A stretch of DNA of 64,000 bases, from contig CACYTP010000009.1 in NCBI GenBank assembly GCA_902777385.1, positions 1 to 64,000 on the forward strand, written 5' to 3'. Shown piece after piece: positions 51,416 to 58,206 of this stretch (position 1 is its first letter; each line of letters begins with the position of its first letter). The notes below the pieces were generated by a model. It had not been told where the DNA came from, did no database searches, and saw only the letters and a program-made list of their open reading frames with translations. The stretch is from an uncultured bacterium (lineage in GTDB: Bacteria > Cyanobacteriota > Vampirovibrionia > Gastranaerophilales > Gastranaerophilaceae). The translations under genes were made by a program, and so were the position numbers.

Positions 51416-52105
51416 TTATCTTTTAATGTATTTAAGATAGTCGCCAATTTTCAGTACATCATTGATAACATATAGGGCATCTCTGTTGTGAAATCTCACA
51501 CAACTGTGAGTTAAATGTCTGTTATTTCTCAAAATTGCTTCTTCGTGCCGTGTTCCGTGTGCATAACCGCCATTATCCCACATATTGCCTGTAATAGTAT
51601 CCACTACATTTAGATAGGCTATTTTCGGGCCGTAATCAAAAGGAAATCTGCGTCTTTTAGTTCCTCTATCACAATCTAAATACGGATATACCTGTTTTTT
51701 TAAAACCTTTCTTATTCCGGGTTTTGTCGGAGTACCAGGGGCCCCTGTAGCAACCTTAAAGGATTCTATTGCTTTGCCGTTGCCATCATATACATAAAAT
51801 CTGCAATTTGTAACATCAACAGTTCCCTTTGCAAGCATTTTTTTACCTTGCAGAGTAAAGTAAGGATCCGGTGCATCCTTTAATATCTCAGGATCATTTG
51901 TCCAACTGCTCGGATTAACGGATTCACGAAAGACTTTTGGTAAATCTTCACTTGTATATTTATCGACCGGATTTGTTGTTCTTAAAAAGGTATCGGGTTT
52001 CTGACTTAAATCAACACGTTGTGCTTGTATAGGCTGTGCATAAGATAAAGTACCTGCAGCAGCCAAAATTCCTAAATTATATCTTATATTATTTAATATC
52101 TTCAT
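51416..52105 (-). CDS. exported L,D-transpeptidase-like (YkuD) protein
   Basis: 229 residues with a signal peptide (about 1-27, ending SYAQPIQAQ). The YkuD domain (about 90-225) has VYDGNGKAIESFKVATG, GYAHGT (catalytic-pocket His) and LTHSCVRFHNRDA with the nucleophile Cys; the usual SHGC reads THSC. Family members make 3-3 peptidoglycan cross-links or anchor wall proteins. It lies eleven bases upstream of the helicase start and overlaps the discarded longer helicase frame. Confidence 0.88.
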   Translation of the reverse strand: MKILNNIRYNLGILAAAGTLSYAQPIQAQRVDLSQKPDTFLRTTNPVDKYTSEDLPKVFRESVNPSSWTNDPEILKDAPDPYFTLQGKKMLAKGTVDVTNCRFYVYDGNGKAIESFKVATGAPGTPTKPGIRKVLKKQVYPYLDCDRGTKRRRFPFDYGPKIAYLNVVDTITGNMWDNGGYAHGTRHEEAILRNNRHLTHSCVRFHNRDALYVINDVLKIGDYLKYIKR

Positions 52106-54251: not shown

Positions 54252-55673
54252 ATGCAAATAAATCGTATAAATTATAAATATAGCACCCCGTATTATAGAC
54301 AAACAAAAGTTGACAATACCAGACCTGCGAATACAGGCGGCAAAACACAGAATTTATTGCCTAACTATTATTACATGCCAATATTTACGGGGAATTATGC
54401 AATAATTAAAGCGGATAATCAGGAACAAGACGCTCAAAATAAGAAGAATGATTTTTTAAGAATGCTAAAAGATACGAATTGGTACGATGAAACTGATGAA
54501 ATAATACCTGCCCAAAACTATTCTGACTGGGACAATGAGCAAATAAACCTTATTAGAAAACAATTGAGTGAGTATGAAGACGACGGAACCCTAAAGACAC
54601 TACTGCAAACAGCAAATCTTTGTACATTTAAAGATTACATCTTGGACGGAGAAAACATATACAGTCTGTCAAATTCAATTACAAAGGACTTGTTTGAAAA
54701 CAAATATCAGCTTAATTATGAACGTTGGCTAAATCCAACAAAAGATTGCGAAGTAAATTTGTCTATAAAAGACAGCCGAGAAAAATTAAAAAACATTGCA
54801 AATAATATTACTGACGATATAGAACTTCTTAGACTAACCCCCGCTAAAGAATTTATAGACAGACAACTGCAACCGTATATAAAAAATGATGAGTTTATAA
54901 TTCCCAAAAAAATTTTCGGAAGCAAACCTATGCTGTACTCATTTACCGAAAGCATTATCAAGCAGCTTAACACAATATGGCGACGAGCGAAGTATCACAG
55001 TGGAGAAAATCAACCGGAAGATCTACGAAAACTTGCAGGTGAAGTCCTTGAAATACGAGATGACCTAAAATATTCTTTGGAAAGAATAAATAACGTAAGA
55101 CGTAACGGAAAAGGACAAAATAACTTTGATATAAAGATTAAAATGTGGGACAGAAATCCAAAAAGGGACTTATTTCAGGGTAATTTTTCAACCTGCTGTA
55201 TCGGCATGGGAGCAGTAAACGGAGATGTCATGGCAAAGTATCTTCTGCACACATGCTTTAATATGATAGAAATTATAGACAATAATACAGATAAAACAAT
55301 AGGAAATGCACTCTGCTATTTTGCTGAAGCTGACGGAGAATTAGCATTTATAATAGATAATGTTGAAATAAATAAGGAATACCTGCCATCCAAGGAGGCA
55401 GGAAACGACATTAGAGATGGTATCGTTGAATATTCAAAAAATTTACTTAATTACATAAAAAAAGATAACCAACCTATCAGCATATACATGAGCTACAGAA
55501 GAAATGATATTAACGCTCCAAAAGAAAATGCAGAAGAAAAATTCTTTGAATTTATCGGAGAACTTTACACTGATATATATCTTGACTTGTATGACGGTTC
55601 AATATTCAGTAGTGACAGTCTGTCACAACAAATAACAGCCTGCAAGCTGTACGACGGAAACGAAACCTGCTAA
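54252..55673 (+). CDS. lineage-specific protein with IFTGN head and WDRNP...CC segment
   Basis: Not recognised. 473 residues, no signal peptide. The head is Tyr/Asn-rich with IFTGN (44-48). The middle is helical. A conserved-looking core at about 295-380 reads IKMWDRNPKRDLFQGNFSTCCIGM, here given with flanks broken, then IIDNNTDKTIGNALCYF and LAFIIDNVEINKEY, a layout of strands like an acyltransferase or papain-like fold. The paired cysteines after FQGNFST are a possible active site (guess). Ends with a Cys. It stands alone between rnhB and the convergent protease gene. Confidence 0.6.
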   Translation: MQINRINYKYSTPYYRQTKVDNTRPANTGGKTQNLLPNYYYMPIFTGNYAIIKADNQEQDAQNKKNDFLRMLKDTNWYDETDEIIPAQNYSDWDNEQINLIRKQLSEYEDDGTLKTLLQTANLCTFKDYILDGENIYSLSNSITKDLFENKYQLNYERWLNPTKDCEVNLSIKDSREKLKNIANNITDDIELLRLTPAKEFIDRQLQPYIKNDEFIIPKKIFGSKPMLYSFTESIIKQLNTIWRRAKYHSGENQPEDLRKLAGEVLEIRDDLKYSLERINNVRRNGKGQNNFDIKIKMWDRNPKRDLFQGNFSTCCIGMGAVNGDVMAKYLLHTCFNMIEIIDNNTDKTIGNALCYFAEADGELAFIIDNVEINKEYLPSKEAGNDIRDGIVEYSKNLLNYIKKDNQPISIYMSYRRNDINAPKENAEEKFFEFIGELYTDIYLDLYDGSIFSSDSLSQQITACKLYDGNETC

Positions 55674-55719: not shown

Positions 55720-56244
55720 CTACTTGTAGATACTCATAAAACGCTCAACATCCCTTTTACTAAGATGCTTTGTATCAGTTATCTGTGAATACATAATATC
55801 AGAAGAAGAAGGTGAATGTTGTAATCCGAGAGCATGACCGATTTCATGTAATGCCGTTGCATAGAACTCTGCATCAGACATTCTTACATTAGTTCTCGGA
55901 TAATTTTCAAATATTTTAATACGGGCAGTAGCATAAAAACCTCTTGGAGTATAAGAATGTGTAACACCAACGGCATTAGCTCGTCCGCTCGCTTCGTCAA
56001 AATCATTGTTATTTTGAAAAGTAACAATAATCTTCGGTATCTTTTTTTCAGTTTCTACATAAAAGAATTTTGCAATATTTGTTCTTGCTTCCCACTCACT
56101 AAAAGCTTCTTTCACAAGATATGCTCTTGGATTATCCTGAACATAAACTTTTACAGGGAAAAACTGCCATCTTGGTAGTTCATAAGCAAAAACAGGAGAT
56201 GCTAACATTAACAAAAACAATAATAAAGTAATAATTTTCTTCAT
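55720..56244 (-). CDS. exported matrixin-like zinc metalloprotease
   Basis: 174 residues from ATG 56244: signal peptide (1-19, ending SPVFAYE) and one peptidase domain. ALHEIGHALGLQHS supplies HExxHxxGxxH, and SSDIMYSQI supplies the Met-turn, the metzincin/M10 signature. RANAVGVTHSYTP lies before it. Small, without propeptide or haemopexin domain. Twelve codons more upstream (ATG 56280) would put residues before the signal peptide, so I reject that start. Confidence 0.88.
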   Translation of the reverse strand: MKKIITLLLFLLMLASPVFAYELPRWQFFPVKVYVQDNPRAYLVKEAFSEWEARTNIAKFFYVETEKKIPKIIVTFQNNNDFDEASGRANAVGVTHSYTPRGFYATARIKIFENYPRTNVRMSDAEFYATALHEIGHALGLQHSPSSSDIMYSQITDTKHLSKRDVERFMSIYK

Positions 56245-56291
56245 AAAAATAATATACCTCATTTTATAAAAAATATTCATTATGTAACTTT

Positions 56292-58154
56292 TTATTTAGA
56301 ACTAACTATACTCTGAACAAAATTATAGGTATCAATAAATCTGTTTTGAGTACCCTTACCCTCTTTAACACCCAATAATATTACCAGATAAATATTTCCC
56401 TGATGTTCAAATACGGTTACAACATTACTAAGGTTACCTCTTACGCCATACTTAACCCCAAGGCAATTATCCAGATATATTTTACTTCTTTCTCTTAATA
56501 AAGGATTAAGAGTGGACACACGCATCTGCATCCCGTCCCTGTTTATAATATAAGACTTATTCCTGAATATCTGACAAAAATGTTGATTATTCAATGCGTA
56601 TTCAACCAGCTTACATGTATCCTCGGCAGTCGTGATATTTCCTACTTCAAACCCTGTTGGAGAAACGAATTTTGTATGCTCAGCACCTAAGATATACATC
56701 TTTTTATTCATCATAGATACAAAATCTTCTACAGAACCACCAACCGCTTCAGCAATTATATTTGCAACCGAGTTGTTTTGAGTAATCATTAAAATATTTA
56801 TTAAGTCATATAATGTAGCAACATTAGTATGCTCAATAACACCGAAAGGAAGTTCAATATCCATTTGAGTATTACCGCTTTCTAACGCCAAAATTGCGGT
56901 CATGATTTTTGCACAACCGACAGCACTAAATTCATCAGTTGAAAGTTTCTTCATTAAAATACTACTGTCGTTCAAATTTTTAATAATTAAAGAAGAAGTA
57001 TTAATTTTTTCGGGCAAAATTAAGCCGTCTTTATAAACTTCAGGCAAACTTTCGGTGAGCATCTTACGTTTATCAAACTGCTCTCTAACCGGCATTAATT
57101 GTTTATTCCCTCCGGCACAAGCTTTTTCAAGATATGCCATGTATCTTGCCTTATTTTTATAGTAATATTCCGTATCAAAAACCTGAGAGAAATAATCAAG
57201 TCTGTCCAGAGAATCAATTGCAAGCATAGTTCGCATACATTTTGTACATTTACCGCAATTTTTAGAATCTGTAATACAAACATGTAAATGCTTTTGGGCA
57301 GGAGCATAATGAAGTATATCCTGTACTTTTTCAAAAAATGTTTTTTCTCCACCCTCAGGAATAATTTTTAATTCGGAAGTACTCAAGACATAATCCAATA
57401 ATAGTTCATAATTTCCGCACTCATGTCTGTCACATTCTTCTAAAGAGAACTGTGAATAATCAAAACCCGAAGAACCGTAATAGAAAATTTTGAACAATTT
57501 TTGCAAAGCAAAAACCGGAAACATGTTACAATAAATATGATCATAACCATACTTTGGACTGAATTCTTCTGACAAATTACTGCTTGTAATTATATATGGC
57601 AAGTCCAGTTCATCTGCAAGCTCAATGCTTTCTTTTATACACTCACGCTTAATTTTTTGATTATCTCTGCCTCCCTCATTGTAACCTGCAATATCAAATG
57701 CCCCGACATCATTAATCATAAGATGAGAAACTCTCATCCCCGGATAATCACAATCTAAATATTCATTCAGGACATGCATGGAATCGATACCCCTTGACAT
57801 TCCGGTACCTACAGCACCTGCATTATGCACGGGTTTACGCTTAACTTCAGCCTGAATTCTTGTTTTATAAAATCCTTTCCCGTATTTTGAAAGAGTAGGA
57901 ATTAAGTGAACCCTTATATTATGCAACAATTCCTCAGAAACCGGAGAAAGACATACGATATCTTTATTATTCCGCATTGCAACTGGAAGCATAGCTATCA
58001 AAAATGCGTCACTTCTATCTTTAACTAAATACCCGCCATACTTATTATCAACATCAAGCCATAATGTTTTTATTTCATTATTAATCTCAATTTCACAAGA
58101 CAAACGGGTTAATTTCCCATTTCTTTTTATCTTTGGTTCACCAATTGTAATCAT
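56292..58154 (-). CDS. fusion of a PP-loop ATP-pyrophosphatase-like domain and a degenerate S11 peptidase domain
   Basis: 620 residues, one frame, no signal peptide or membrane helix. Residues about 115-345 look like an adenine-nucleotide alpha-hydrolase: GTGMSRGIDSM (SGGxDS-like), then CGKCTKCMRTMLAI, as in PP-loop proteins of envelope-precursor pathways. Residues about 400-620 resemble D-Ala-D-Ala carboxypeptidase (S11): GCAKIMTAILALES, TQNNSVANIIAEAVGG, HTKFVSPTGFE, LGVKYGVRGNL. The SxxK serine reads Gly and KTG reads KYG, so peptidase activity is doubtful. Without export the C-terminal part would be cytoplasmic. Possible muropeptide-precursor enzyme or sensor; unproven. Confidence 0.65.
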   Translation of the reverse strand: MITIGEPKIKRNGKLTRLSCEIEINNEIKTLWLDVDNKYGGYLVKDRSDAFLIAMLPVAMRNNKDIVCLSPVSEELLHNIRVHLIPTLSKYGKGFYKTRIQAEVKRKPVHNAGAVGTGMSRGIDSMHVLNEYLDCDYPGMRVSHLMINDVGAFDIAGYNEGGRDNQKIKRECIKESIELADELDLPYIITSSNLSEEFSPKYGYDHIYCNMFPVFALQKLFKIFYYGSSGFDYSQFSLEECDRHECGNYELLLDYVLSTSELKIIPEGGEKTFFEKVQDILHYAPAQKHLHVCITDSKNCGKCTKCMRTMLAIDSLDRLDYFSQVFDTEYYYKNKARYMAYLEKACAGGNKQLMPVREQFDKRKMLTESLPEVYKDGLILPEKINTSSLIIKNLNDSSILMKKLSTDEFSAVGCAKIMTAILALESGNTQMDIELPFGVIEHTNVATLYDLINILMITQNNSVANIIAEAVGGSVEDFVSMMNKKMYILGAEHTKFVSPTGFEVGNITTAEDTCKLVEYALNNQHFCQIFRNKSYIINRDGMQMRVSTLNPLLRERSKIYLDNCLGVKYGVRGNLSNVVTVFEHQGNIYLVILLGVKEGKGTQNRFIDTYNFVQSIVSSK

Positions 58155-58206
58155 ACTTCTCTCCGATTGGTATTATTATATAATCAATATACATCTTTGT
58201 CTAACA

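Follow-up and report, generated by a model that had tools for sequence, protein, structure and literature searches.

The gene described here belongs to an uncultured gut or rumen bacterium of the Gastranaerophilales, relatives of the cyanobacteria, whose genome (G000; 2.32 Mb) is 99.95% complete. In the window (the whole stretch of 64,000 nucleotides that was analysed), a single open reading frame of 620 codons, starting with ATG and occupying exactly positions 56,292 to 58,154, joins a PP-loop-like half to an altered peptidase S11 half, as a first-pass annotation had recognised without giving the strand, which is the minus strand. The features of this gene and of its immediate surroundings are as follows:

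55635..55650, minus strand: terminator-like hairpin 3' of the M10 gene (one found, against 1.6 expected in shuffled sequences)
55720..56280, minus strand: gene for a secreted M10 (matrixin-type) metallopeptidase, 11 nt downstream of the fusion gene (PF00413, E 1.4e-18)
56292..58154, minus strand: fusion gene, QatC/QueC-like PP-loop half plus degenerate S11 half, 620 amino acids
56295..57047, minus strand: S11 fold domain, residues 370-620 (Pfam and structural alignment)
56445..56453, minus strand: KYG at the KTG position, without Thr, residues 568-570 (alignment)
56772..56780, minus strand: QNN at the SxN position, without Ser, residues 459-461 (alignment)
56907..56918, minus strand: GCAK at the SxxK position, without the nucleophilic Ser, residues 413-416 (alignment)
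57048..57200, minus strand: helical C-extension and linker, residues 319-369 (AlphaFold2 models)
57201..57830, minus strand: QueC-type PP-loop core, residues 109-318 (structural alignment to QatC and Cap9, HHalign to QueC)
57237..57278, minus strand: QueC zinc-type motif C-x6-C-x2-C-x2-C with four cysteines, residues 293-306 (sequence)
57780..57797, minus strand: degenerate PP-loop SRGIDS (canonical SGGxDS), residues 120-125 (sequence)
57831..58154, minus strand: N-terminal extension, residues 1-108, with strands and helices like the N-extension of QatC
58159..58164, minus strand: ribosome-binding-site-like GGAGAG, 4 nt 5' of the ATG (sequence)
58175..58203, minus strand: promoter-like TAGACA-17-TATAAT, a consensus match of a kind about as common as chance predicts (22 sites found in the scan, 20.3 expected in shuffles)

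The fusion gene, its distribution and its neighbours

The protein carries no hydrophobic N-terminus, transmembrane segment or export signal in a Kyte-Doolittle profile with a 19-residue window (maximum 0.12 within the first 40 residues and 1.46 anywhere), in agreement with the first-pass reading of a protein of cytosolic type, and by its sequence it is presumably cytosolic. An AlphaFold2 model of the whole protein reached a mean pLDDT of 94.3 and a pTM of 0.84, the latter suggesting that the two halves are held in a defined arrangement.

Among 97 relatives, the full-length fusion was found in eight of the 13 genomes of the genus, at 50-73% identity and without stops, and in none outside it; a fusion profile run over 386 genomes of the phylum placed it in this genus only, the two halves being separate proteins elsewhere, and a single-protein query in a first scan of genome contigs gave no match. 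Three of the genomes without it (G006, G009 and G010) form a more distant group, with 38-41% identity in the neighbouring membrane protein, and one closer relative without it (G001) is represented by a fragmented genome that is 84% complete. The frame is not a product of chance, given an S11 match above the Pfam cut-off and the same stop-free frame in eight genomes, and the intact fusion in all eight members having it rules out a frame error between two separate genes. No relatives were detected in viral contigs, which disfavours phage origin or carriage.

Pairwise dN/dS values of 0.04-0.15 for the N-terminal half and 0.11-0.21 for the S11 half, although dS approaches saturation for several of the comparisons, indicate that neither half is decaying freely and that both are under purifying selection. 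It is thus hardly credible that the fusion is decaying or accidental and without function, as its confinement to one genus and its loss of several catalytic residues might have suggested: it is free of stops in eight genomes, its dN/dS ranges from 0.04 to 0.21, and its pocket and cysteine residues are invariant.

The M10 gene immediately downstream is probably co-transcribed with the fusion gene. A gene of this type, with a signal-peptide-like start, follows the fusion by 1-30 nt in four of the eight genomes (G000, G004, G011 and G012), and a gene for a lysozyme of the LysM-phage type lies convergent to it in five (G002, G005, G008, G011 and G012); other neighbours, read by eye, encode a membrane protein and RNase HII- and GTPase-like proteins. 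This metallopeptidase and lysozyme context is loosely compatible with a role connected to the envelope. It could also mean that the fusion acts together with its neighbours, the secreted metallopeptidase or the wall-lytic genes, for instance by chaperoning or regulating them inside the cell, an idea that draws on the adjacency of the M10 gene in half of the genomes and of the convergent lysozyme gene in five, but that is rendered quite improbable by the four genomes (G002, G003, G005 and G008) in which no M10 gene was found beside the fusion. About 4 kb from the fusion gene, positions 51416-52105 (minus strand) of the window encode what appears by eye to be an L,D-transpeptidase-like protein (HGTRHE...THSCVR).

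The QatC-like half and its altered PP-loop

The N-terminal half (residues 1-369), folded on its own with a pLDDT of 95.7, matched no family above cut-off in Pfam, NCBIfam, PHROG or PADLOC; the Pfam QueC family (PF06508) was absent from its matches at E <= 1, DUF6395 gave a weak match touching the cysteine segment, and a profile search of the PDB returned weak PP-loop (MnmA) matches only. Foldseek by itself yielded no match for this half at E < 0.001, and its assignment comes instead from re-alignment with VIA, from HHalign and from the shared order of the PP-loop and the four-cysteine motif. By VIA, the top match was QatC of the qatABCD system (9y01_B; Z 15.3, 302 residues aligned over residues 1-362), followed by Cap9 of type IV CBASS (9nto_B; Z 12.4, core 113-314) and then by TilS and LarE (Z about 9), and HHalign against QueC gave an E-value of 7e-5, with a probability of 62% in local and 94% in global mode. 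The cysteine segment, in which the first-pass annotation had noted a CxxC and an MRTML stretch, reads C293-x6-C300-x2-C303-x2-C306-MRTML and corresponds to the four-cysteine motif of the QueC family (PMC13329287); with variant spacing, it is intact in all eight fusions.

In QatC itself, as described in PMC13279940, four strands and three helices make up an N-extension; a QueC core holding four zinc cysteines comes next, and three further helices form a C-extension, the part to which QatB binds. In the model, the fusion shows an N-extension, a QueC-type core, a four-cysteine motif and a helical C-extension in the same order, with the differences that its SGGxDS loop is broken, that its identity to QatC is 12%, and that an S11 domain stands at its end; that this domain takes the place of QatB after the C-extension is only a suggestion drawn from the model. 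Unlike the qatABCD system, the gene has no QatA, QatB or QatD beside it, and the fusion protein itself gave no PADLOC match. With Cap9 and QueC (PF06508) it shares the predicted fold of the core (113-314), but its PP-loop is broken, it has no Pfam QueC match, and a deazaguanine context was not seen. The source genome also encodes a normal QueC, and it has a MurI-type racemase, so that a MurL role is not needed.

Direct sequence homology links this half to stand-alone proteins of about 400 residues (roughly 24-42% identity, homologous over about 345 residues), which differ from the fusion in keeping their own loop (S[GCAS]GxDS), in lacking an S11 domain and in ending in a short basic or hydrophobic tail. 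A scan of 84,980 species recovered seven of the fusions together with such stand-alone proteins, in records titled Victivallales, Verrucomicrobia, Opitutales, Kiritimatiellaeota and Lentisphaeraceae, and further in Clostridia, Bacilli, Spirochaetia, Planctomycetaceae and one archaeon; four more occur in other genera of the same bacterial family, others in cyanobacteria, and others again on plasmids of Paracoccus yeei (P0002). On one of these plasmids, pTT13-1, a homologue annotated as hypothetical (L139:8419-10095) carries about 180 extra N-terminal residues and is 37% identical to a Verrucomicrobia member. Where the DNA shows their surroundings, stand-alone members lie mostly in polysaccharide loci (L028-L031, L046-L070, P0002), next to flippase-, glycosyltransferase-, pyruvyl-transferase-, TupA-type ATP-grasp- and CapA-like genes (called partly by Pfam and partly by eye), whereas the fusion gene lies outside such a context.

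The two groups also differ in the loop that would hold the phosphates of ATP. The motif S-[GCAS]-G-[VI]-D-S is present in every one of the 23 stand-alone members aligned, and the eight fusions all deviate from it, a correlation that counts as few events because the fusions are one lineage; the loop reads SRGxDS in five of them and SRGISS, SRGINS and VGGIDS in one each, so that Arg replaces Gly in seven, Asp is lost in two and the first Ser in one. Within the fusion lineage the loop is still changing (Asp to Ser or Asn, Ser to Val). A few distant cyanobacterial stand-alone members have slight variants (SLGVDS, SGGIDA, TGGIDT), and the loop is therefore not wholly constant among proteins other than the fusions. 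The 'activating enzyme' originally envisaged for this half is at odds with the loop being broken in 8/8 fusions and kept in 23/23 stand-alone proteins.

The S11 half and related proteins

The C-terminal half (residues 370-620) is clearly of the S11 type, both by HMM search and by structure prediction, as had first been supposed. Pfam PF00768 (Peptidase S11) matches residues 383-552 with an E-value of 4.7e-15 (56.1 bits, against a cut-off of 27.6), and the modelled domain aligns with DacB of Bacillus subtilis (3mfd_A; VIA Z 30.4, rmsd 2.4, 228 residues) and with the Streptomyces K15 enzyme (1skf; Z 29.2). The motif columns were set by alignment with active S11 proteins; STTK or SLTK, SAN or SGN, and KTG stand in the S11 domains of a prophage-like protein and of three further cyanobacteria. 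The alignment placed Gly at the SxxK serine (G413-C-A-K416) and KYG at the KTG position (K568-Y-G570), the two replacements already recorded in the first-pass annotation; the loss of the SxN serine (QNN) and the degenerate PP-loop (SRGIDS) were not. In all eight species the hydroxyl residues are exchanged (24 of 24 positions), the SxxK Ser for Gly or Ala, the SxN Ser for Gln or Arg, and the KTG Thr for Tyr or Val, and K416, N461, K568 and G570 are the same in every copy. In a tree, the fused domains of the eight species group together (support 82/98), beside S11 domains with active motifs. The half thus resembles the S11 D-Ala-D-Ala carboxypeptidases (DacB, K15) in its predicted fold and in the Lys, Asn, Lys and Gly of its motifs, and differs from them in lacking all three catalytic hydroxyls and a signal peptide and in being attached to a PP-loop domain.

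S11 peptidases act via an acyl-serine. That the half retains some serine-free chemistry, for instance through K416, or a residual non-acylating activity could be read from the four invariant pocket residues, but the dependence of the family on an acyl-serine and the want of a conserved alternative nucleophile in the SxxK segment (C414 is Val, Phe or Thr in other copies) make it very improbable. These pocket residues may also be conserved for folding alone.

Other S11-like proteins were met in the same searches. Apparently the only other one in the source genome (G000:C5:118598-119023; L072) is a membrane-anchored, class-A-beta-lactamase-like protein with active SIIK, SDN and KTG motifs, found in many genomes of the family; its anchor, its active motifs and its wide occurrence in relatives led to its rejection as the source of the fused domain. 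A prophage tail-fibre-like protein (L106, ORF 163-2220, of G212) bears an S11 domain with active SLTK, SAN and KTG.

A search with the fused S11 domain as query also returned a Mur ligase-S11 protein of 737 residues (L111:3842-6055 of G171; Mur_ligase_M 1.5e-32, Mur_ligase_C 3.8e-12, S11 7.5e-10), encoded near radical-SAM-like and glycosyltransferase-like proteins. Like the fusion, it is an ATP enzyme of cytosolic type with a degenerate S11 C-terminus from the same taxonomic family; unlike it, its GKTT P-loop is intact, its S11 part is more degenerate, having lost both Ser and Lys of SxxK, and it occurs in one genome, together with a broken remnant of the S11 part in another (L107 of G100). 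In this bacterial family a dead S11 module thus stands C-terminal to two different ATP-type enzymes, the best indirect hint, by analogy, that such a module may recognise a cytosolic substrate of peptide or peptide-sugar type. The literature on Mur ligase-S11 fusions, PP-loop pseudoenzymes and inactive S11 homologues contained nothing fitting.

Binding without catalysis as the favoured reading

Taken together, these observations are best explained, with a probability that we put at about 0.45, by a double pseudoenzyme, cytosolic and conserved, whose function is to bind and not to catalyse. Its N-terminal half would be a QatC-like domain of the QueC family with an altered phosphate-binding loop; its S11 half, deprived of its Ser and Thr hydroxyls with the lysines, asparagine and glycine of the pocket retained, would recognise a peptide of a wall or glycan precursor, such as one with D-Ala-D-Ala at its end; and recognition might be relayed through the attached QatC-like domain, in the manner of a receptor or scaffold. 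The protein carries no sensor output domain, which speaks against this reading. The mechanism first proposed for this locus would then be half right: the S11 half is disabled as described, but the half held to be activating has lost its canonical ATP-phosphate loop as well. A more specific and doubtful version is a cytosolic receptor for peptidoglycan precursors, in which the pseudo-penicillin-binding domain would read a precursor ending in D-Ala-D-Ala (such as UDP-MurNAc-pentapeptide) and the silenced QatC-like domain would relay the state of wall synthesis.

The main rival is that the QatC-like half is a live ATP-dependent ligase or amidating enzyme acting by carboxylate adenylation, with the dead S11 half as its substrate holder, in a new modification of wall or glycan peptides, a view close to the mechanism first proposed for this locus. 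ATP chemistry is the business of QueC, Cap9 and QatC (PMC13329287, PMC13279940), the stand-alone homologues with intact loops lie mostly in polysaccharide loci, and in a Gastranaerophilales Mur ligase an intact GKTT loop goes together with a degenerate S11 tail; moreover, S120, D124 and S125 survive in five of the eight fusions, so that ATP might still be bound. Against this, the loop is broken in every fusion, and in several ways; the S156A/S161A mutation in the PP-loop abolishes QatC function (PMC13279940); and the fusion is no longer found in polysaccharide loci. We regard an active ligase as unlikely, and the double pseudoenzyme as the most likely account; both enzymatic activities would then have been lost, and the ligand and a part in signalling are put forward conditionally.

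No precedent for a protein of this make-up was found in the literature, as the first-pass annotation had also held. To our knowledge, the union of a QueC-family domain and an S11 domain in one protein has no described counterpart, and neither has a fusion in which both enzyme halves are disabled and yet under selection.

The stand-alone QatC-like proteins, found widely in polysaccharide loci and matched by no Pfam family, deserve study in their own right. They tie the QatC/Cap9 fold, on which current work concerns protein modification in phage defence, to glycan loci, and the fusion ties it to a penicillin-binding fold that apparently functions intracellularly; the fusion offers a simple test case for S11 pockets as receptors of precursors.
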